A stretch of DNA of 23,059 nt from a virus: IMG/VR virus record IMGVR_UViG_3300027759_000445, positions 1 through 23,059 of that record, one strand, 5' to 3'. The position numbers and the translations under genes were made by a program. Shown piece after piece: positions 1,648-19,921 of the stretch (position 1 is its first letter; every line of letters begins with the position of its first letter). Below the pieces are notes generated by a model. That model was given only the letters and a program-made list of their open reading frames with translations. It was not told the DNA's origin and made no database searches.

Positions 1648-4600
1648 ACTTTAAAATCTTTGCAAGTTATACATTTTTTCCAATCCGTCTTACCATGAAC
1701 ATCACATAAGCGAATCCACTTCTTAGGGCAATTACAATCTTTTCTATCAATTACTTTTCCAATGTGTTCGCATTGTTCATGGTTGATCATCTGCATTGGT
1801 GTTCTAGAATTCATCAAGTTTGATGTTTGAATAAATTCTACATTTTGAAGAATTTGATTAAATTCAATTGGCAATGCTTCTTGAATGAATTCATCAACAA
1901 CTTCTTCCATTGCAATATCGCATTGAAAACCTGGAACCGATATTGCTGTTAAATTTGTAATATATGTAAAAAATGGAAATTGTACATTTATATTTATAAC
2001 TGGAACTTCATTTGGTACTTTATAAGCTAGATTATATGCACCAAAAGAACTTGCTCTATTATTACCACCACCTTCTGCATCAAATCTCACATTCTTATAC
2101 TTAATTTTTAATGGGCTTAAACTTATTACTTCAAAATCAGGTTTTACACTAAACCTAAAACTGTAATAACTAAAGTAATAATCAAAATAAATGTAATCGT
2201 AATTATAAATAGCTGCCCCATTAGTGGCTTTAAAAGATATATCTAATCCTCCAGCAGAAAAACCACTAGAATAATTTGAAAACTTAAAATTAAAAATTCC
2301 ATTAAAATTATTTACCCATTCTTTACTTTTTGAGTAGCTTGCACCCAAAATATCTGCATTAACATTTGTTGGTATAGGATCATTTAAATTAACATTTTCA
2401 TATCTAGGTAAGTTTTCTTTTGATACATCCTTCCAACCATAAAGAAATTTAACTGATAAACTTCTATCTTTGTATAATGTTTCTAATCCAACATTAGGAA
2501 TGTAAATACCGTCATTTGCATCTTGTAAAGTTCTTGCAATTCTAATTAAAGTTTGTCCAGAAGTTTGTTTTTCATCCTTAATTTCTTCCATGTAAATGGA
2601 ATAAAAAGGAGTAAAAGTTATATCTACAGCGGTTGCACCACTACCACCACCACCAGAAATAACTACAGTTTTATTTGATGTAAAGTCTTTTCCTTTATTG
2701 TAAGTTGTAACCGATACAACTTTACCACCGCTAATAGTTGCGTATGCAGATGCACCAGTACCACCACCACCAGAAAGTGTAACAGTAGGAACAGATGTAT
2801 ATCCAGAACCGCTATTAGTAACTAAGTAATCTAATCCAACGAATTGAACTTCATTACCTGTTTTCCAAACATCTGCATCACCATTAATTAACAAACAGCT
2901 TTTAAACCTATCAGAAACACCAAAATCAGGATATGCTCTACCGGGTTTTGCTACATAAGAAGTAAGAATTGGGGGATCTATTGCAACAATATCTTTGGGA
3001 ATAATACTAAATTCGTAGACATTTGATGTACTAGAAAATTTATTTACAACCATAAACTCATTAGATTGATTTATGTTTGGGGGATAAAATTCATAGTTAT
3101 TTAATTCTATAGCTATCAAAGGTGAATAAGTAGGATAATACCCTGTATAAACACTTGTATAACTTCCCCAAGTAAAAACACTATATCCTATATAATTAGT
3201 AATGCTATAAGCACTTTGAAATGAAAATGAAAAAATATCAATAATACCTGGAGTTTTATAATAATCATCTAAAAAAGCATTATAATTAAACATATTAAAT
3301 TGCGGTATTTTTTTGTAATTTTCAAAATTAACTTTTAACTTACTAACTTTTCTTAACCTGTCTGGTATGCTTGCTGGTTGACACAATGGAACACTTTGAA
3401 AAGATATTATTGCATCTGATTCAAATCCACCTTTTAAAACAGCTTTATATGAAGATGGTATTGAACTCCCATTTGCGAGCCTCTCAATATTTACACCTTG
3501 ATTGTTCTTGTAAGTGTTTTCAAGAAGTATTTTGCCAGACCATAAAATATTTCTTATTGTTAATGTTGTTCTTCCAGTAGCATCAGTAGTAGATGTTATT
3601 TGGGTTCTATCTGTTTTGGATGCTATATATTTTAATGGAACATATGGTTGATCTATAAAATATGCAAATGGAATTGATGGGTTTTCAATAGGAACTTTTT
3701 TATATCCAAATGAAATCACTTCCACTTTATCTGTTATATTAATATAATAATCATCTCTAACATATAAATCTGTAAACGATCCATTAACAAAATTTTCAAT
3801 TATATTTTGATTATTATCAAATGTTGATGGGCGATTAGCAATTACAGCAGAACCAATTGAATCGTGCTGATCAAGAGTTAAAAATTCTGTTCTGTAATAA
3901 ACTGGAGGGCCACCCCAAGATGGTACTTGATATATGTAAGTTGCTTGTGATCTTATAACAGGGGAAACAGGAACTAAGGATAATTCTCCTAAAAACACTC
4001 CATTTTTATTTATTTCAAAACTCTTTAAAACATATCCATTTTTATAAGGAACTGACATTTTATTTATATAAGGATTGTATGCCCATAATTTTGGCAAATC
4101 TGAAGTAATAGGATTTTGTCCTTGATTTGGGCCAGGATATATAGTTTTTACAGAACTAAAAAAAGTGTAATTTGGATATTGATAAGAAAATTGATATGAA
4201 GAAACATCTAAAAAATAAGATGGTTGCATTACTTGAATAATATTATTTTCGCAAGTTGCATTTGGTCTAAAACCAGCCAAGCTATAATCGTTATTTTTAA
4301 TGAAATTGAAATAATTTGAAAGAGATCCAGTATATCTATATGTAATAGGATCATTATTTACTACATAATAAACTTCATAGAAATAAGAACTTCCCCCAAA
4401 TGTATTTGCATTGGGTAAATTTTGTTTGTAATATTCATCAAATCCAGGGTAATATGCTAAAATTGGTGATCGATATGGTTCTACTTCAACCTGATATGTT
4501 TTTACTGTTTTTTCAACAAAACCATTTTCATCAATTATTGTTGGCCATCCATAGTTATAAAAAGGACGGGTCAGAGGAACAGATAGGTTTCCTTTGCAAT

Positions 4601-6950: not shown

Positions 6951-6956
6951 ATTATA
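6951..6956 (-). promoter_or_regulatory. Extended -10 promoter candidate for the 6914/6686 gene pair
   Basis: The minus strand reads TGATATAAT across the stop codon of the cysteine peptidase gene: a perfect TATAAT with a TGn extension. No good -35 is visible. A start near 6944 would leave a leader of about 30 bases carrying the TAGGAGG site of the small Cys protein. Together with the terminator at 6365-6398 it would delimit a two-gene transcription unit. Chance occurrence in AT-rich DNA cannot be excluded. Confidence 0.4.
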
Positions 6957-7932
6957 TCAACCACTCGATAGTTCGTGCAGGGTATCCGTCAAAATTAGAG
7001 AAAGAAAAAACTTCCTCAAGACAGATTCTATCCATGTCCTTGGCTTTAATCCAATAGGAACCCTTGGGTTCACCGAAATTGCCTAGCGGGGTTCCATGAG
7101 CGTTACCCCATGAATTCTGAATCAAAAAGATCAAACCAAAATCTGGATGGGTGGTAAACCCTAAACATGACTGTTGGTGGCCCCACGATTGATTTCTTGA
7201 GGCTAATTGGACAGCAGGGGTTCCAGATGGCTTTACTTTTAGATCGCTAAATCCGAACCAAGAAGAGGCTATAGTGACAGGGTATCCATGCGATAAAGCC
7301 TGTTTAACCTCTTCACTATTTTTAAGCTTTGAAGTGCTTTGAACTTTGAACTTATTTGCTGAAGCATCAATATCAATGGGTGGCTTGTCACCATTTGACC
7401 AAGCGGTTTCTGCTGATGCACCAAAAGTCCAAGAACCATCTTGTTCTTTAATCGGTTGCGGGTAACTAGGATCTAATGGGGGGCAACCATCTTCGTTTAG
7501 GGATTCTGCCATAGAACTGCCAAAAGAACCTTCGCCTGTTCCATGCAATCCACCACGCTTACGAGATTGACCGTAATTATAAAGAATGAATGGAATTCTC
7601 CATTCTTCAAATGTTTGCCGTTGAGATATTATTTCAACCGCTTGTAAAGTAGCCATTACCGCTAAAGCACCATGACCTACACACGAACCAGTTTTTTGAT
7701 CCCAAGGAAAAAATTCGTAACCAGCAGCTTGATTAACAACCTTATATAAGAGTGATTCTTTCAAATCTAATGGCGGGCCAGCGATTTGAAAAGGAACAAG
7801 TTTTGCATTGAACTTGTCTTGAAGTTCTTTAGGCTGAGAATCAATTGGCAACCAACCGAATTTGCTTGGGGAAATTGGAGGTTCTTTTGCTTTATTTCTT
7901 TCGCCAAATTTTGGCTGGTTTTCCATAGTCAT
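6952..7932 (-). CDS. Papain-like (C1A-type) cysteine peptidase, candidate lysis enzyme
   Basis: The 326-residue protein shows the papain-family active-site pattern in the right order: DQKTGSCVGHGA (nucleophile Cys84, possible oxyanion Gln79), SWGHQQ (His252) and IQNSWGNAHG (Asn273 in the conserved NSWG). Residues 1-70 would be an N-terminal extension; no signal peptide or membrane helix is seen, so it would act in the cytoplasm or need a holin to reach the cell wall. The ATG at 7932 overlaps the upstream stop as TAATG and has AAGGAG in front; a second Met is at residue 3. It closes a run of membrane/export genes that looks like a lysis cassette, where an endolysin is expected, and no other muralytic enzyme is visible in the window. 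It might instead process virion proteins or cleave peptide cross-links; the substrate is not known. Confidence 0.75.
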   Translation of the reverse strand: MTMENQPKFGERNKAKEPPISPSKFGWLPIDSQPKELQDKFNAKLVPFQIAGPPLDLKESLLYKVVNQAAGYEFFPWDQKTGSCVGHGALAVMATLQAVEIISQRQTFEEWRIPFILYNYGQSRKRGGLHGTGEGSFGSSMAESLNEDGCPPLDPSYPQPIKEQDGSWTFGASAETAWSNGDKPPIDIDASANKFKVQSTSKLKNSEEVKQALSHGYPVTIASSWFGFSDLKVKPSGTPAVQLASRNQSWGHQQSCLGFTTHPDFGLIFLIQNSWGNAHGTPLGNFGEPKGSYWIKAKDMDRICLEEVFSFSNFDGYPARTIEWLI

Positions 7933-9486: not shown

Positions 9487-10539
9487 CTATGTTCTAGCAA
9501 ATGTTACAATTTTTCCGGTAAATGAGTTATCTCCTGCAAAATAAACGCTTGTTCCATCAGCAGAAATAGCTAAATACGAATTTGATGCTAAAACACCCGA
9601 AGAAATTGTACTAGTTCCTGATAAACTACCTGTGCCAGTATCTCGAGCAAAAATATATATCTTATTACTACTATTAGAATAAACATTTGTGCCATCAGCG
9701 GAAATACAAACTGAATTAGGATAATATTCCATAATTCTAGATCCATTGGCAGTCAATGCCCCTGTGCTAGTATTACGATTAAAAATTAAAAGTCTGTTGA
9801 AATAGCCTGCTTCAGTTACATAAACATTTTGATTATCAGAAGAAATGCAGAAAAGAGGTGTACTTGGAACTGAAGAAGAAGTTAATACTACTCCACCGTA
9901 ATAAGTCAATATTCCGGTAGAAGTATTTCGTGACCAGATATTAACATAACCAGCAGCAGGGTAAAGAACATAAATGCTTGTACCATCAGCAGAAATTAAA
10001 ATTCTACCAACTGCACCTTGATTTGAACTTGTTGTTCCAATAGAAGTTAACACTCCAAAAAGGCTTCTAGAAAACATTGAAATTGTTGAAGAATAATAGT
10101 TATATACATATACATTTAAACCATCATTAGAAACACAAATACTTGTTGGGTAATTCCCTGTGCTTATTGTTTCTTGAGAAGTCAATGCTCCTGTGCTAGT
10201 ATTTCTATTAAATCGCAAAACTAAACCAGCGTAGGTTCCATAATTAGTTATTTTAACCACATAAACGCTTGTACCATCAACAGAAATACAAATGCCTGTT
10301 ATTTCTCCAAATCCAGTACTTATTGTTCCATTAGCCGTTAATATTCCTGTGGCAATATCTCGATCAAATATAAATACTGATGTGCTGGAATAGTCTGCTA
10401 CATAAACACTTTTCCCATCTGCTGAAACAACAATTCCACGATAACTATCCCCAATTGTTATTGTGTCAATCTTACTAAGTGATCCAGCATAAGATGGAGC
10501 AAATTTATTTGAACCCATGATTTTTCTAGAAATAGTCAT
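9487..10539 (-). CDS. Seven-bladed beta-propeller tail protein
   Basis: The start at 10539 overlaps the upstream stop as TAATG; an in-frame ATG at 10590 would lie inside the neighbour. The 350-residue protein contains seven copies of a strand motif of the form S.DG..VYV (SADGKSVYV, SVDGTSVYV, SNDGLNVYV, SADGTSIYV, SSDNQNVYV, SADGTNVYS, SADGTSVYF) alternating with (F/W)xRxxxTGxLT (for example FNRNTSTGALT). Seven units of about 45 residues match the YVTN/lactonase-like seven-bladed propeller. The last FART probably closes the ring with the first unit. No signal peptide is present. Lying at the end of the fibre cluster and translationally coupled to a fibre gene, it is most likely a receptor-binding or structural cap; a sugar- or ester-cleaving activity cannot be judged from sequence. 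Confidence 0.75.
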   Translation of the reverse strand: MTISRKIMGSNKFAPSYAGSLSKIDTITIGDSYRGIVVSADGKSVYVADYSSTSVFIFDRDIATGILTANGTISTGFGEITGICISVDGTSVYVVKITNYGTYAGLVLRFNRNTSTGALTSQETISTGNYPTSICVSNDGLNVYVYNYYSSTISMFSRSLFGVLTSIGTTSSNQGAVGRILISADGTSIYVLYPAAGYVNIWSRNTSTGILTYYGGVVLTSSSVPSTPLFCISSDNQNVYVTEAGYFNRLLIFNRNTSTGALTANGSRIMEYYPNSVCISADGTNVYSNSSNKIYIFARDTGTGSLSGTSTISSGVLASNSYLAISADGTSVYFAGDNSFTGKIVTFART

Positions 10540-11954
10540 TAGAAATTTTGACCCCCAATCATCGCATAAAATGTACTTCCACCATCCCATGTTGTTAGTA
10601 CGAAGATATCAACCTGACCATTTGTAATAGTTAAATTTGGGGATATGCCATCAATCCATTTTACTGATGCTGGCCATGCAACACTCCTTGTTGTTCCATC
10701 TGCCGTAAATGCTAAAGTCAATGCGTATGCTGTTCCAGATGCTGGTATATTTGATATCGTAAGTGTAGTTATATCTGCGTTTAATGAAACATGAAAAACA
10801 TTTCCTAATGCACAATTTAGTATTAGCGTTCCACTAGAAATAGTTGGTGCTGTTTTTGTTTCTTTTAGTCCGGTAATTGTAGGAGTTAAAATCGATGGAG
10901 AGGTTGCGAAAACATTTGCCCCTGTGCCAGTCTCGTCTGAAAGTGCTGCTGCTAAATTTGCTGAAGATGGTGTAGCAAGGAAAGTTGCTACATTTGTGCC
11001 TAGGCCAGAAACACCTGTCGAGATTGGCAATCCTGTGCATGAAGTAAGCGTACCGCTGGATGGTGTGCCTAATGCCCCTGCTGGTGCAATGTAATCTGTA
11101 CCTGATACTGCTGCACTAATTGCAGTTCCATTACCTTTTAAAACCCCTGTGATTGATGTTGATATAGTAATAGCTGGTGTTGTAGTTGCCGTTGCTACTG
11201 TTCCACCAAATCCGTTTGCGGATATTACGGATGCACTTGTTACAGTACCTGATCCACCAGCGTTATTATAATCTGAAATAAGAACAGGACTTTTGCTAGA
11301 GTTACCAATCCATATCTTCTTGTCTACTATATTAGCAGCAAGTTCCCCCTCTAAAAGCGAAGTAGGGGTTACTGTAGTTGTGCTACTTCTTTTTATTCTT
11401 ATCGTGTTCGTAACTGTGTAAGTAAATAAAGTGTTAGCAGCATTTGTACCACTAGGGGTAGTTACTAATACACTTGCACTACCAGCAGTTCCAGCGGGTG
11501 TAGTAGCGGTAATGGTTGTTGAATTTACAACTGTAACACTAGTAGCTGCAACACCTCCAATAGTAACAGAAGTTGCACCAGTTAAATTTGCCCCTGTTAT
11601 GGTTACGCTAGTTCCACCAAATGTTGTTCCAATAGAAGGAGAAATACCTGATACTGTAGGTGCTGATGTTAAACATTCACCTGCTGTTGATGTAGGGGCA
11701 GGGGCTGATCCGTTAACCCCAACTGACCAAGTAACCAACGCTATATTAGTCTGGTATAAAGTTCCCGAATAAAGAACATTATAACCCGTTGTGCCATCTA
11801 TTAATCTAAAGCTGTCATAATCATAATCATAGCTAAAATATATCGCTGGAGTTCCAACCTTTTCCCATGAACTATTGGAACTGTTATAACTATAAGTTCC
11901 GTTTGCTTGTGTACTACCTGCACCAGAAACGCAATAAGGATTTACTGTAGGCAT
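10539..11954 (-). CDS. Tail fibre with IPT/TIG domain
   Basis: The ATG at 11954 is chosen because GGAGGT lies 10 bases upstream; the ATG at 11972 falls within the upstream gene. The 471-residue product has an N-terminal domain starting VSGAGSTQANGTY (residues 9-21), a motif seen in many phage appendage proteins, then an IPT/TIG Ig-like domain at about 98-180 (SGISPSIGTTFGGTSVTITG), then a LLEGELAANIVDKKIWIG segment (about 200-220) like the LAxGELAxNxxDxKLxIG element that begins many fibre shafts. The remaining 250 residues are low-complexity Thr/Ser/Ala/Gly beta repeats ending in a compact WDGGSTFYAMIGG tip. Its stop overlaps the start of the propeller gene. Probable role: surface adhesion or receptor binding at the tail tip. 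Confidence 0.75.
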   Translation of the reverse strand: MPTVNPYCVSGAGSTQANGTYSYNSSNSSWEKVGTPAIYFSYDYDYDSFRLIDGTTGYNVLYSGTLYQTNIALVTWSVGVNGSAPAPTSTAGECLTSAPTVSGISPSIGTTFGGTSVTITGANLTGATSVTIGGVAATSVTVVNSTTITATTPAGTAGSASVLVTTPSGTNAANTLFTYTVTNTIRIKRSSTTTVTPTSLLEGELAANIVDKKIWIGNSSKSPVLISDYNNAGGSGTVTSASVISANGFGGTVATATTTPAITISTSITGVLKGNGTAISAAVSGTDYIAPAGALGTPSSGTLTSCTGLPISTGVSGLGTNVATFLATPSSANLAAALSDETGTGANVFATSPSILTPTITGLKETKTAPTISSGTLILNCALGNVFHVSLNADITTLTISNIPASGTAYALTLAFTADGTTRSVAWPASVKWIDGISPNLTITNGQVDIFVLTTWDGGSTFYAMIGGQNF

Positions 11955-11955
11955 T

Positions 11956-13050
11956 TTAGAATGAACCTCCATTTATATCGGCATTAGTTACTGATGAACA
12001 TGATACATTACCAGTAACTATTAATGAGCCAGAAATAGTACCACCAGAAGACGATAAAGAATTAGTAACAGTAACATCGCCTGTTGCAGAATCTACACTA
12101 ATACCAGTTCCGGCAATAATTGATGAAACACCACCAGAAGATGATGCAAATGAAAGATTTCCCGCACCATCAGTTACAATTGCTTGACCCGCTGTACCGT
12201 CTGAAATCGGGTAAATTATTGCGTTATTCGTAAGGCCAGCAAATACAACTGGATCTGTAGTGTTTAAACTTTGATCAAATGGATTTGCTGCTGATGCAAA
12301 TGAAAGATTTCCCGCACCATCAGTTGTGATTACCTGACCAATTGTACCATCAGATGTTGGATATATAATTGAGTTGTTGGTTAATCCGGTAAAAGATACT
12401 GCATCTGCAATATTCAAACTCTGATCAAATGGATTTGCTGCTGATGCAAAAGATAAATTCCCTGCACCATCAGTTGTGATTACTTGGCCTACTGTACCAT
12501 CTGATGTTGGGTAGATTATTGAATTATTTGTTAATCCAGTAAAAGATACAGCATCTGCAATATTCAAACTCTGATCAAATGGATTCGCTGCTGATGCAAA
12601 TGAAAGGTTACCCGCACCGTCTGTTACAACAACTTGACCTACTGTACCGTCAGATGTTGGATATATGATTGAATTGTTTGTCAATCCGGTAAAAGATACA
12701 GCATCTGCAATATTAAGTGATTGATCGAAGGGATTTGCACCGCTTGCAAATGATAAATTTCCCGCACCATCTGTTACAATTGATTGCCCTGCTGTACCGT
12801 CTGAAATTGGGTAAATTATTGCGTTATTCGTAAGGCCAGCAAATACAACTGGATCTGTAGTGTTTAAACTTTGATCAAATGGATTTCCACCACCACCAAA
12901 ATAAGCTAAAGCAGTCCAAGCTAAAACACCATCACCAATTTTCAATTGGTTCGTGTCTGTTTCTAAACCAAATTCACCTTCTGCTAAAGTTGGATCTACA
13001 CTTGTCCAGTTTGCTGCTGTATCTCGCCTAATTTGGATTTCAATTGCCAT
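11956..13050 (-). CDS. Tail fibre with Mtd-like N-terminus and five 50-residue repeats
   Basis: The 364-residue protein starts at 13050 behind GGAG. Residues 1-52 (IQIRRDTAANWTSVDPTLAE then GEFGLETDTNQLKIGDG) form the familiar attachment module of phage fibres, similar to the N-terminal domain of the major tropism determinant. Residues 56-305 are five tandem 50-residue repeats, each of the type NPFDQSLNIADAVSFTGLTN followed by NSIIYPTSDG, TVGQV and TDGAGNLSFAS. The C-terminal 60 residues are Ser/Gly/Thr-rich (SSGGTISGSLIVTGNVSCSS). There is no chaperone or peptidase domain. It sits 3 bp after the upstream fibre and 1 bp before the IPT/TIG gene start. The repeats probably make a beta-helical shaft whose length depends on copy number. 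Confidence 0.75.
   Translation of the reverse strand: MAIEIQIRRDTAANWTSVDPTLAEGEFGLETDTNQLKIGDGVLAWTALAYFGGGGNPFDQSLNTTDPVVFAGLTNNAIIYPISDGTAGQSIVTDGAGNLSFASGANPFDQSLNIADAVSFTGLTNNSIIYPTSDGTVGQVVVTDGAGNLSFASAANPFDQSLNIADAVSFTGLTNNSIIYPTSDGTVGQVITTDGAGNLSFASAANPFDQSLNIADAVSFTGLTNNSIIYPTSDGTIGQVITTDGAGNLSFASAANPFDQSLNTTDPVVFAGLTNNAIIYPISDGTAGQAIVTDGAGNLSFASSSGGVSSIIAGTGISVDSATGDVTVTNSLSSSGGTISGSLIVTGNVSCSSVTNADINGGSF
12136..12885 (-). repeat. Five tandem 150-bp repeats within a fibre gene
   Basis: The repeat period is exactly 150 bp (TTGATCAAATGGATT-type junctions recur at 12271, 12421, 12571, 12721 and 12871). In coding order, copies 2-4 carry SLNIADAVSFTGLTN, while copies 1 and 5 both carry SLNTTDPVVFAGLTN. 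Bases 12209-12286 are identical to 12809-12886, and 12191-12286 differ from 12791-12886 at one base only, whereas neighbouring copies differ at many silent sites. This points to recent copying between the outermost units. Confidence 0.9.
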
Positions 13051-15887: not shown

Positions 15888-18209
15888 TTAAACCGTTCCT
15901 AATTCAACTTGTTCTTGTTTGCTTAAAGCACCAGGTATTTTACCTTGTATCTGAACAGGTGGTGTAGTTTGTGGTTTATTATCTTTAGCTTTTTTCATTC
16001 CTTCTGCAAAAGCATCTGCCAATGCATTCTTGTCTAATTTACTAGAAATATCGCCAAGCATATCTTCTTGAGTCTTTTGGCCAGATGCTGCCATCATTGC
16101 ATTTTTTCTCACTTCGTCACCAACTCCAGCGATTGATGTTGATGAAACTTCTCTTACTGCTGCACCAACAGAAGATCCTTTTTTTATCCTATCTTGTTCT
16201 GCTGGTTTACCTTGCTTAAGACTTTCACCTGACTTTGATATTGCTTCTCCACCTTTAGCAATGCTTTTTCCAACATCACCCATAAGAGGTATATACGATA
16301 TCACTTTCCCAAGACCTTGGATAATTAATCCAACTATGTTTACAAATGCTCCTAGTAAAGTTTGAATTATTTCAAGAGTTGTTTTTATAACAAGTGTTAA
16401 TGCATCAAACGCAAAACTAAGAGTTGCCATAGCTACAGATACAATTGGTGATGCAAGTACTCCAATCGTTTGAACTAATGCAGATGAAAAAGCAGTTATA
16501 AATTCTATTATTGGTTTTAATACATTTGAAACACCAACAACAATAGTGGCTAATGCGTTAAATACTGGGCCAATAACACTATACACAACCGCACCTAAAT
16601 CCATTAAAGGAGATGCAATATTATCAAATGCAACAGCAGATTTATTTATTGAAGGAGTTAATTTCTTCATCGAATAATCTACATAATCAGCATATTTTCT
16701 AAGTAATGGAGAAAGATATTCTACCGCTGGTATCAACGATCTTCCTATTACACCACTAAGATCGTTCATCACTATTTCAAGCTTTTGCATTAACGCTGGA
16801 TTTGCTTTTGCAACCATTGGGCCAAAAACAGCAAGTGCCTGATTAGCTATTTTTACTGATTGAGTAATGCTATTGAAGGCAACACCTAGTGCTGTAGATG
16901 CTGCACCAACAACAGTAATTGATTTAGCTGCATTTACTATTGTAGAAACTGTAGAACCTATATTTACAACTGCTGATGCAATTATTGAACCAACTGATCC
17001 TCCAGCAGCATAATATCCAACACCACCAACCGAACCACCAGATGCACGATATTCAGTTTTCTTTTTATTTCTACCACTATTTATTGATTCAAGTTGTTTT
17101 CTGTTTTCTGGATCTTTAGCAGCATCTTTTTTTACAACAAACTCACCTGGGGTAAGCATTGCGGGTTGAGTATCAGTACCCTTTGGTTTCATTGGGCCAG
17201 AAGCATCACCACCATCAGCAAGATAGGAAACACCTCCACCTTTAGACATTTCTTTGGGTTGCTTGTAACCAATCCCTTTGGCCATCATTTTCAAACCATA
17301 ATTAACGAGTGGGCCTCTAAACAAAGGGGTTAAATTCTGAAACCCAGCAATCATTGAATCAAGTTCTTTTTGAGTTCTTTGATTAGCTTGTGCTAATTCT
17401 TTTGCAGCTTGATCTTGTTGTTTAATTAGATCATTTGCAGCTTTGGCCTCTTCGTTTGCTTGTCTTTCTTCTTGTTTCCTAAAGTATGTTCTTAGTGTTT
17501 TTTCTGCATTAACTGCATCTTGTTCGGCTTTTTCTTTTTCTTTTAAAGACTTTTGAGCAGATTTTGCAGCATCAGCAGCATCTTTTTTTTCTTGAGCTTT
17601 TTTTGCATCTGTTGCAGCTTTATCTGCTGCAATAACAGCTTCCTTCTTTTGATTTTCGTTTTTATCAAAAAGTTTTTTAGGAGGCCCAACAAAATCTTTA
17701 GTTCCTTCTTTACCAGTTTTTTTAACTTTCTCTTCATCTGCTTTTACAATTTTTTGTTTGTCTATGATCGATTGTCTTACACCAGAAATCATCTTAGACC
17801 AAGCATCACCAGTCTGATTGATCCCTTCAATCAAAGAGGAAATTTTTACTGGCTTAACTTTCTCTTGTCTTTTTTCTATTTCTTTTTCTCTGGCTTTTTC
17901 TTTAACTATTTTTTCTTTTTCTTGAAAATCAATTACTTTCTTTGGTTCTTTTACAACTTCTTTTGTAGATGTAGATTTGTCCTTAGTTGCTGGCTTTTGA
18001 ACCTTCTCAGGCTTTGCTACTACTTGAACTTTTATTGATTTAATTGCGTTTACAAGGGTTGTTTGCAACCTTTTAATTGCCGTAGTCAAACCAGTAAAGC
18101 TTTTGGTAAAATCCCTCGATCCCGCCTTAACACTTTGGGCAATATTTTCCACCGCACCAACCAGATCGTTTGTCATCTCGTCATCTGATTTTAATGGAAT
18201 ATCTGCCAT
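15888..18209 (-). CDS. Tail tape-measure protein
   Basis: The 773-residue protein sets tail length and is packed in the tail tube before ejection. Residues 1-300 are highly charged and helical, with long Lys/Glu/Ala-rich coiled coil (about 65-130 and 170-285). Around 330-375 is a Gly-rich element with DTQPAMLTPGEFVVKKDAA, the TPGEFVV motif common in tape-measure proteins, followed by two ASGGSVG/AAGGSVG segments. From about 405 to 640 it is hydrophobic with several candidate membrane-spanning helices, and the C-terminus is polar. The start ATG overlaps the T-domain stop as TAATG. At the usual ratio of roughly 0.15 nm per residue, the tail would be about 115 nm. Position after the G/T chaperone is canonical for siphophages. 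Confidence 0.92.
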   Translation of the reverse strand: MADIPLKSDDEMTNDLVGAVENIAQSVKAGSRDFTKSFTGLTTAIKRLQTTLVNAIKSIKVQVVAKPEKVQKPATKDKSTSTKEVVKEPKKVIDFQEKEKIVKEKAREKEIEKRQEKVKPVKISSLIEGINQTGDAWSKMISGVRQSIIDKQKIVKADEEKVKKTGKEGTKDFVGPPKKLFDKNENQKKEAVIAADKAATDAKKAQEKKDAADAAKSAQKSLKEKEKAEQDAVNAEKTLRTYFRKQEERQANEEAKAANDLIKQQDQAAKELAQANQRTQKELDSMIAGFQNLTPLFRGPLVNYGLKMMAKGIGYKQPKEMSKGGGVSYLADGGDASGPMKPKGTDTQPAMLTPGEFVVKKDAAKDPENRKQLESINSGRNKKKTEYRASGGSVGGVGYYAAGGSVGSIIASAVVNIGSTVSTIVNAAKSITVVGAASTALGVAFNSITQSVKIANQALAVFGPMVAKANPALMQKLEIVMNDLSGVIGRSLIPAVEYLSPLLRKYADYVDYSMKKLTPSINKSAVAFDNIASPLMDLGAVVYSVIGPVFNALATIVVGVSNVLKPIIEFITAFSSALVQTIGVLASPIVSVAMATLSFAFDALTLVIKTTLEIIQTLLGAFVNIVGLIIQGLGKVISYIPLMGDVGKSIAKGGEAISKSGESLKQGKPAEQDRIKKGSSVGAAVREVSSTSIAGVGDEVRKNAMMAASGQKTQEDMLGDISSKLDKNALADAFAEGMKKAKDNKPQTTPPVQIQGKIPGALSKQEQVELGTV

Positions 18210-18502
18210 TATTTTATCCCTGGTGGTAAGCTTCCAAATTGCTTAATCCAAGATGATTTCATCTTGGCTTCACTCATCCCTAATGATGCTCCCATTTTCA
18301 TAAAACTAAGGCATTTTTGCAACATCATATCTTCAATAGGAACAATTTTCTTTCTAGTATTCCACTCATGCTTTTCATCAGGAATATTAACAGGAATACC
18401 CTTATCATCTCTTCTCCGATAATAAAGTTCTACTATCTGCCTATCGGTCAACTTCTCAATCTCCCAAGGTCGCAAGAGATAAGGCTTATCCATCAAATTC
18501 AC
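18209..18502 (-). CDS. Tail assembly chaperone T domain, expressed as a -1 frameshift extension
   Basis: The open frame from the ATG at 18502 gives 97 residues (LRPWEIEKLTDRQIVELYYR then a WNTRKKIVP segment and a C-terminal PPGIK). That ATG lacks a good ribosome binding site. The same frame is open further upstream to a TAA at 18590-18592, encoding GVGDGSFNPKEPIPPPNLKT before the Met. The frame is entered by a -1 shift from the preceding G gene at CCCAAAC. The expected fusion is 258 residues from 18984 to 18209. In lambda and many siphophages the equivalent gpGT bridges tape measure and tail-tube protein during assembly and is absent from the virion. The sequence itself is not recognisably similar to lambda T; order and signal carry the call. 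Confidence 0.75.
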   Translation of the reverse strand: MNLMDKPYLLRPWEIEKLTDRQIVELYYRRRDDKGIPVNIPDEKHEWNTRKKIVPIEDMMLQKCLSFMKMGASLGMSEAKMKSSWIKQFGSLPPGIK

Positions 18503-18521
18503 ATAGTAAGTTTTTAAATTA

Positions 18522-18583
18522 GGTGGAGGTATTGGTTCTTTTGGATTAAAAGAACCATCACCTACACCTTCTTGCCGTTTGGG
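18522..18583 (-). promoter_or_regulatory. Programmed -1 ribosomal frameshift signal
   Basis: On the minus strand the G gene contains the slippery heptamer C CCA AAC (18583-18577) in the correct phase. Eight bases later starts a long hairpin: GGTG/CACC (18568-18565 with 18525-18522), AGGT/ACCT (18563-18560 with 18530-18527) and a perfect 10-bp TGGTTCTTTT/AAAAGAACCA stem (18557-18548 with 18542-18533) closed by a 5-base loop. The zero-frame stop TAG (18564-18562) lies inside the stem. The -1 frame opens only at a TAA just upstream (18592-18590), so the shift must occur in about 27 bases. Heptamer, spacer and stem all match the known layout of phage G/T signals. Confidence 0.88.
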
Positions 18584-18984
18584 AATGATTTATCCCGAAC
18601 TATCTCCATTACGGCTTCAAACCTGTCATTTTCAGCAAGCATGACATTTTGAACTTCATTCTCAGGTGCGGAAAACAATATAGATGCGAATGCCAATGCT
18701 CCTGATGGTGTAGACAACGATGATATAGAGTTCTCGCTACCAAATGAATAAACTCCGCTCGCAATATCTCTTGTTACAGAAGAAATTGCTTCACGGAATT
18801 CAACAGGTTCTAACCTGTCTTTCATTGAGAAGATAGAATCGAGAGCTTTCTTCTCCATTCTCTTTTCAAATTCAGCTTTAACTTTTTGTGTAATGAGTCC
18901 AGCGGTGTATTTTTTCCCATTGTATTCAATGGTCAAAGACCCTTCACCGCTGGAATTTAACAAATTACCAACTGTATCTGACAT
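18562..18984 (-). CDS. Tail assembly chaperone, G-like
   Basis: The 140-residue protein starts at 18984 behind AAGGAAG and ends at TAG 18562; its length equals that of lambda gpG. It is mainly helical: an N-terminal beta strand pair (GSLTIEYNGKKYTAGLI), a Lys/Glu-rich helix (KVKAEFEKRMEKKALDSIFS), then SxLSTPSGALAFASILFSAP and a C-terminal helix. Such small acidic-basic proteins between the tail tube and tape-measure genes bind the tape measure during tail assembly. A fraction of ribosomes shift frame near codon 135 to make the longer G-T fusion with the downstream open frame. The G part is produced in excess over G-T in phages studied, which would be set here by the strength of the hairpin. 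Confidence 0.8.
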   Translation of the reverse strand: MSDTVGNLLNSSGEGSLTIEYNGKKYTAGLITQKVKAEFEKRMEKKALDSIFSMKDRLEPVEFREAISSVTRDIASGVYSFGSENSISSLSTPSGALAFASILFSAPENEVQNVMLAENDRFEAVMEIVRDKSFPNGKKV

Positions 18985-19010: not shown

Positions 19011-19403
19011 TTAAGGAGTAACTGGCCCAACTCTAAAATCAAAATCACCATATGTAGCAAATGTTACAGATATTTTTTGAACATCTTTTGCATCTGCTGT
19101 ATAGGTCAATGATGTTATAACGCAATTAGTTATAGTTACTGTTTGTTCTACAGTATCACCATCAGTAATTTCTATATCTCCAACAGAACCTTGTTTTAAT
19201 CCGTATCCACCAACAATTTCAAGCAAATCAAGAGTTATTTCTGCTGAATACATACCAATTGCATGAGAATCAAAACCTTGGTTGATAAAGGTTGTAGTAT
19301 CAATAACTTCTGCTTTTGAATTTACAGAAATATTTGTTGCTGGAAGAGGATCTGCAATACCAGAAAGGTAAACATTTCCGGTTCTGCCTGAAAGAATAGC
19401 CAT
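19011..19403 (-). CDS. Tail-tube-like protein (second paralogue)
   Basis: The 130-residue protein starts at 19403 behind AAGGAG. It has beta-rich spacing with Gly turns and ends in NCVITSLTYTADAKDVQKIS followed by VTFATYGDFDF. The segment NCxxTSxTYxxxxKDVQKI is shared with the 166-residue neighbour upstream, as is a central SAEIT. This makes the two genes paralogues. Small beta proteins at this place, before the G/T chaperone and tape measure, form the tail tube ring in siphophages. Having two suggests a duplication: one may be the main tube subunit and the other a minor or terminating ring. Which is the main one cannot be told from sequence. Confidence 0.65.
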   Translation of the reverse strand: MAILSGRTGNVYLSGIADPLPATNISVNSKAEVIDTTTFINQGFDSHAIGMYSAEITLDLLEIVGGYGLKQGSVGDIEITDGDTVEQTVTITNCVITSLTYTADAKDVQKISVTFATYGDFDFRVGPVTP

Positions 19404-19420: not shown

Positions 19421-19921
19421 TTATACTGAGAAATCAGCAAAGTTAACATCAGGGGTTGATGAAGGTATTAGAGTCAGTTTAATTTTTTGAACATCTTTTA
19501 CAGCAACATCGTAAGTAACACTTGTTACGGTACAATTTTGAAACAAAAATTCTGCACCAGCATTATTAGCAGCACGATATTCGCTTGTTCCCAATGTTGC
19601 TTGACTAAGTGTTGGATTTTCTGCTAAAAATGCTGCTCTATTGCCATCTTGTGAAAGCTTTAAATCCGCTTTCATGCCAGCAAAAACAACAGGCATTTCT
19701 GTTTTATCATAAACCGCTTCAACAGTTATTTCTGCCGATTGAATACCATCTACAAGAATTGTATATCCTAGTCCGTTATAATTGCTCGCATCTGGAGTGT
19801 CCATTTTTGTAGAGATAGAAACAGATGTACAAGGGAGAAATACTGGAACTAAAGTATCGGTTCTTTCTATAAAAAGACTAGCTACTTTACCAGTAAGAAA
19901 AATATTGTCTATTGCTGCCAT
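19421..19921 (-). CDS. Tail-tube-like protein (first paralogue)
   Basis: A 166-residue protein starting at 19921 behind AAGGAG. It contains SAEITVEAVYDKTEMPVVFA in the middle and FQNCTVTSVTYDVAVKDVQK near the C-terminus, the latter matching the downstream 130-residue protein. The extra length relative to that paralogue lies in a central insertion (roughly residues 90-120, DGNRAAFLAENPTLSQATLG). It has no signal peptide or membrane helix and reads as an all-beta virion subunit. Its place between the connector genes and the tail chaperone is where the major tail protein is expected, and it is the first of the tandem pair, so it is the slightly better candidate for the main tube subunit. Confidence 0.65.
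   Translation of the reverse strand: MAAIDNIFLTGKVASLFIERTDTLVPVFLPCTSVSISTKMDTPDASNYNGLGYTILVDGIQSAEITVEAVYDKTEMPVVFAGMKADLKLSQDGNRAAFLAENPTLSQATLGTSEYRAANNAGAEFLFQNCTVTSVTYDVAVKDVQKIKLTLIPSSTPDVNFADFSV

Follow-up and report, generated by a model that had tools for sequence, protein, structure and literature searches.

The window analyzed here, by which we mean the whole stretch of 23,059 bases that makes up an IMG/VR virus record, carries its structural genes on the minus strand, in the order capsid protein (matching Pfam Phage_capsid_4), two tail-tube-like proteins, a G-like open reading frame (ORF), T, and tape measure. The G/T pair sits between the major tail protein gene (upstream) and the tape-measure gene (downstream) and therefore occupies the lambda G/GT position. 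The T stop and the tape-measure start overlap as TAATG, the last A of TAA beginning the ATG. The features of the region are listed below.

19011-19403, minus strand: major tail (tube) protein gene, 130 aa; PHROG 1407, E=3.8e-6
18562-18984, minus strand: G-like gene, 140 aa, zero frame; Shine-Dalgarno (SD) AAGGA 5' of ATG; 59 relatives at 66-98% identity
18593-18597, minus strand: SD-like CGGGA (NGG GA), 9 nt upstream of the heptamer, made by an NGG Arg codon that does not vary; probably stimulates from the upstream side
18590-18592, minus strand: TAA that closes the -1 frame, lying 6 nt upstream of the heptamer
18577-18583, minus strand: slippery heptamer C_CCA_AAC, in phase with the 140-codon ORF 18984-18562; CCCAAAC in 58/59 relatives and in the additional contig L134
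18521-18569, minus strand: predicted stimulatory hairpin on the 3' side; 20 bp, interrupted by two 1x1 mismatches; holds the zero-frame stop UAG
18209-18577, minus strand: -1-frame extension (T), 122 codons past the slip, ending at TAA
18209-18984, minus strand: putative G-T fusion of 258 aa, read in the zero frame over 18984-18577 and in the -1 frame from 18577 onward, this base being used twice
15888-18209, minus strand: tape-measure protein gene, 773 aa; PHROG 5493, E=1e-4; tblastn matches to annotated tape-measure proteins

The two tail-tube-like genes (19011-19403 and 19421-19921, minus strand) are adjacent paralogues with 25% identity over 123 columns and a common motif, TS(L/V)TYxxxxKDVQKI; the first matches the PHROG major tail protein family and the second matches it weakly. 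Elsewhere on the minus strand, a tail-fibre-like protein (11956-13050) holds five copies of the segment NPFDQSLNxxDxVxFxGLTNNxIIYPxSDGTxGQ, and a 326-aa protein (6952-7932) resembles by eye a papain-like (C1) peptidase (KTGSCVGHG, NSWG), which is unusual among phage structural genes.

Neither G nor T matched any Pfam or PHROGs family above threshold, and G matched no solved structure in the PDB. The AlphaFold model of G consists of two strands followed by helices (pLDDT 76), and a Foldseek search of BFVD with this model returned only uncharacterised uncultured-phage proteins at E<=1e-3, named chaperones appearing only at E>0.5; the model of T (pLDDT 66) was too poor for a structure search. The tail-chaperone label that we apply to G and T is a putative one, drawn from gene position, architecture, and recoding, not from homology.

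On the minus strand, the site reads GTT CGG GAT AAA TCA TTC CCA AAC GGC AAG AAG GTG TAG, ending at the zero-frame stop of G (UAG, 18564-18562). As claimed in the initial annotation, the heptamer CCCAAAC (18583-18577, minus strand) is present in phase in the 140-residue G-like gene. The TAA that closes the -1 frame upstream of it was also correctly recognized, at a distance of 6 nt, not 7; beyond this TAA, the -1 frame has 124 open codons, through to 18209 and into the next gene, and the expected products of 140 and 258 residues agree with the reading frames. An in-phase XXXWWWN heptamer within the last 9 codons has P=0.045 by codon shuffle and, taken alone, is no rarity. The genes of the window contain 49 such in-phase heptamers, among which only the C_CCA_AAC site has a long -1 ORF together with a strong hairpin (hairpin energy -26, with -18.9 for the next best). 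A second candidate, AAATTTC, located 10 nt from the 3' end of a gene that stops at 10539 and followed by a 353-codon -1 frame, was rejected, the junction being a TAATG stop-start coupling; in the same region (10539-10590, minus strand), the program-called ATG at 10590 is probably too early. A literature search for CCCAAAC combined with frameshift found no paper in the collection searched.

Scans of IMG/VR with G and T yielded 59 related loci, to which we added L134, a contig of 3.4 kb assigned to a Proteobacteria MAG; it was the single genome-contig match and is too short to name a host. Searches of INPHARED phages by tblastn with G, T, or the capsid protein returned no relative, only weak tape-measure matches. 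Identity to the 59 IMG/VR relatives is 66-98% for G and goes down to about 43% for T. CCCAAAC is exact in 58 of them, and this conservation rules out a chance origin of the heptamer. All 59 also have a -1 frame that runs open into T, as the initial annotation had described for the window, and the total lengths are 254-258 aa. From the heptamer to the G stop, the distance is 12 nt in most clades and 27 nt in two, therefore the position of the stop is not part of the mechanism. In 17 representatives with 94 comparable G codon columns, the third base is invariant in exactly four, namely the three heptamer codons and an upstream Arg codon; in 11 loci the F codon of the heptamer is changed to one for Y but retains C as its third base. 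The combination that had been named as contrary to a frameshift, loss of both heptamer and stem with a separately initiated T kept, was seen in none of the 60 loci. The single deviating heptamer, in L026, reads CACAAAC (3414-3420) and is accompanied by a change of GGC to GCC just after it, the SD-like motif, the hairpin, and the open -1 frame being intact; this may be a sequencing error, or the site may rely on the A_AAC tetramer.

Downstream of the heptamer, the hairpin (18569-18521) has a dG of -26.0 and a z of -5.4, and 0/200 shuffles were as stable. A stem-loop of 18 bp after an 8-base spacer had been claimed; the stem-loop exists, with 20 bp and two 1x1 mismatches instead, and the spacer is 8 bases when the terminal A-U pair is not counted and otherwise 7 nt. 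The burial of the zero-frame stop in the stem was accurately described. A hairpin starting 6-8 nt past the heptamer is predicted in most relatives, with differences in loop and indels, and the stability of the region ranges among them from -14 to -27 kcal/mol. The description of the hairpin as unusually regular is apt for the present sequence but not for the relatives, where it is less regular and variable, and the regularity is partly explained by the encoded Gly/Pro-rich peptide, the two arms encoding EGVG and PIPPP. Alignment of homologous loci, proposed as a check for covariation of heptamer and stem, showed a conserved heptamer, one stem pair with a synonymous double change, and several pairs that break. 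In the close clade, the covariation score was above most shuffles, 3/500 being as high. We also randomized synonymous codons per locus, with control windows, in 14 loci; this version replaced a first test, of weaker contrast, because pooled codon usage biased the controls. Among 450 coding windows of the contig, none is more stable than that of the hairpin, whose codon-constrained z is -2.9. These predictions support a structural stimulator downstream of the heptamer.

The initial annotation lacks an upstream SD-like element. The invariant Arg codon lies 14 nt, six codons, upstream of the slippery site and is NGG in 60/60 loci (AGG 32, CGG 28), NGG making up 89/340 of the Arg codons elsewhere. 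The motif that it creates across the loci is GGGA, lengthened to GGGAG in several clades, and the anti-SD energies of the upstream stretch are -4.1 to -8.9 kcal/mol; this motif would probably stimulate the slip by anti-Shine-Dalgarno contact. In dnaX, the spacing from SD to heptamer is about 10 nt. SD-like stimulators upstream of the slip site are known for dnaX and for many IS elements (PMC5009743, PMC4066793).

Heptamer and hairpin would be incidental if T were an independent gene with its start at GTG 18502 or ATG 18493, and the methionine of LMDKP, conserved in all relatives, means that a start codon is always available. However, these starts have unfavorable anti-SD duplexes (+1.7 and +0.4 kcal/mol, respectively, whereas most genes of the window reach about -5 to -9), in agreement with the earlier claim that T has no ribosome binding site of its own, and no SD was found before T in nearly all loci examined. 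The 22-30 codons from the heptamer to the first possible T start contain no ATG, GTG, or TTG in 60/60 loci, and in the -1 frame their peptide evolves under purifying selection, pN/pS being 0.17, 0.06, 0.15, 0, 0.30, and 0 in six clades (the two smallest with few changes); the other two frames contain stops in every clade, with ratios mostly near or above 1. As this peptide is conserved and has no start codon, only a frameshift from G can express it. The heptamer codons are moreover frozen, and a separately started T appears highly improbable.

Even with real frameshifting, the hairpin might be a mere by-product of the Gly/Pro-rich peptide (EGVG...PIPPP), the slip being driven by the heptamer and the upstream SD-like element. 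Consistent with this, beyond peptide constraint the hairpin is unremarkable in 6/14 loci (L023, L015, L120, L124, L125, and L126; 10-33%), the codon-constrained z reaching only -0.9 to -1.6 in L023, L015, L120, L124, and L126, and several stem pairs are broken in close relatives. We nevertheless consider this unlikely: under synonymous-codon randomization the hairpin of the window stands among the lowest 3.6% of its 450 control windows and the loci tested in clades B and C do not exceed the 5th percentile, one stem pair of the close clade shows a synonymous double change from GGU..AUA to GGA..AUU (UA to AU, L023/L076), and the 6-8 nt placement persists in most loci despite the loop and indel differences. 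Similarly, the Arg codon could act via slow decoding and not as an internal Shine-Dalgarno, given that CGG is rare in these genes (8/340 Arg codons) yet used in 28/60 loci at the site. Against this, AGG, the second most common Arg codon (81/340), is equally used there, and what the loci have in common is GGGA(G), with its anti-SD energies and dnaX-like spacing; slow decoding thus seems to us a rather poor prospect compared with an SD-like contact.

The conserved heptamer, the frozen third bases, and the selection on a -1-frame peptide that has no start codon strongly support the G-to-GT reading of the initial annotation, and the locus almost certainly encodes a programmed -1 ribosomal frameshift of the lambda type, located in putative genes for tail assembly chaperones. 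The majority of ribosomes would stop at UAG and produce the 140-aa G. A minority would pause on C_CCA_AAC. The hairpin, which begins 7-8 nt past the heptamer, would help, as probably would pairing of the anti-Shine-Dalgarno with GGGA(G), 8-9 nt before the heptamer. The tRNAs for Pro and Asn would re-pair on CCC and AAA, and reading would resume from CGG to give the 258-aa G-T. The slip itself and its efficiency we infer from sequence. By analogy with lambda, G would coat the tape-measure protein, and the T part would bring in tail-tube subunits.

The motifs that work best in E. coli are C_CCA_AAG, G_GGA_AAG, and A_AAA_AAG, and there AAC as the second codon belongs to the low-efficiency class, shifting less than AAG does (PMC4066793). 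CCCAAAC, which had been called canonical, is therefore so for the general pattern only and not as a bacterial optimum. Slippage on C_CCA_AAC is plausible because the g-t site of the haloarchaeal virus HCTV-1 is G_GGA_AAC (PMC5009743), with AAC also as second codon, and it fits a low G:GT ratio, although the efficiency class is that of E. coli and may not be that of the host. In lambda, the G:GT ratio is 30:1 (PMC5009743). We are inclined to see in these loci an uncharacterised environmental tail-chaperone family whose signal has three parts as in dnaX, an internal Shine-Dalgarno, C_CCA_AAC as a heptamer of low efficiency, and a hairpin, and in which the weak heptamer would be frozen so that the stimulators set a low, fixed G:GT ratio. 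The example would extend the known lambda G/GT frameshift, with the upstream SD-like motif as one additional conserved element, and would bring it to environmental phages without recognisable chaperone homology, where the recoding signal therefore marks a chaperone gene that homology searches fail to find. It is a conserved phage case that combines a "eukaryotic-like" AAC second codon with a conserved upstream SD-like element.

The programmed -1 frameshift of phage lambda G/GT was reportedly described by Xu, Hendrix and Duda in 2004. Expected of such systems are a fusion made at a few percent of G, binding of the tape measure by G and of the tail tube by T, and absence of the proteins from virions. 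The lambda heptamer is G_GGA_AAG, in contrast to C_CCA_AAC here, and our locus also differs from lambda in its strong hairpin, its conserved upstream SD-like motif, and its lack of detectable homology to named families. Like lambda G/GT (PMC5009743), it has two ORFs between tail tube and tape measure, the second of which lies in the -1 frame and has no start of its own, and an X_XXY_YYZ heptamer near the end of the first. With HCTV-1, a haloarchaeal tailed virus (PMC5009743), it shares the g-t gene context and the AAC second codon, whereas X = G and an archaeal host are particular to HCTV-1 and no homology was shown. Finally, the arrangement of upstream SD-like sequence, heptamer, and downstream hairpin is that of E. 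coli dnaX, which slips on A_AAA_AAG at about 50% to give a shorter product, whereas here the product of the slip would be longer and is expected to be rare.
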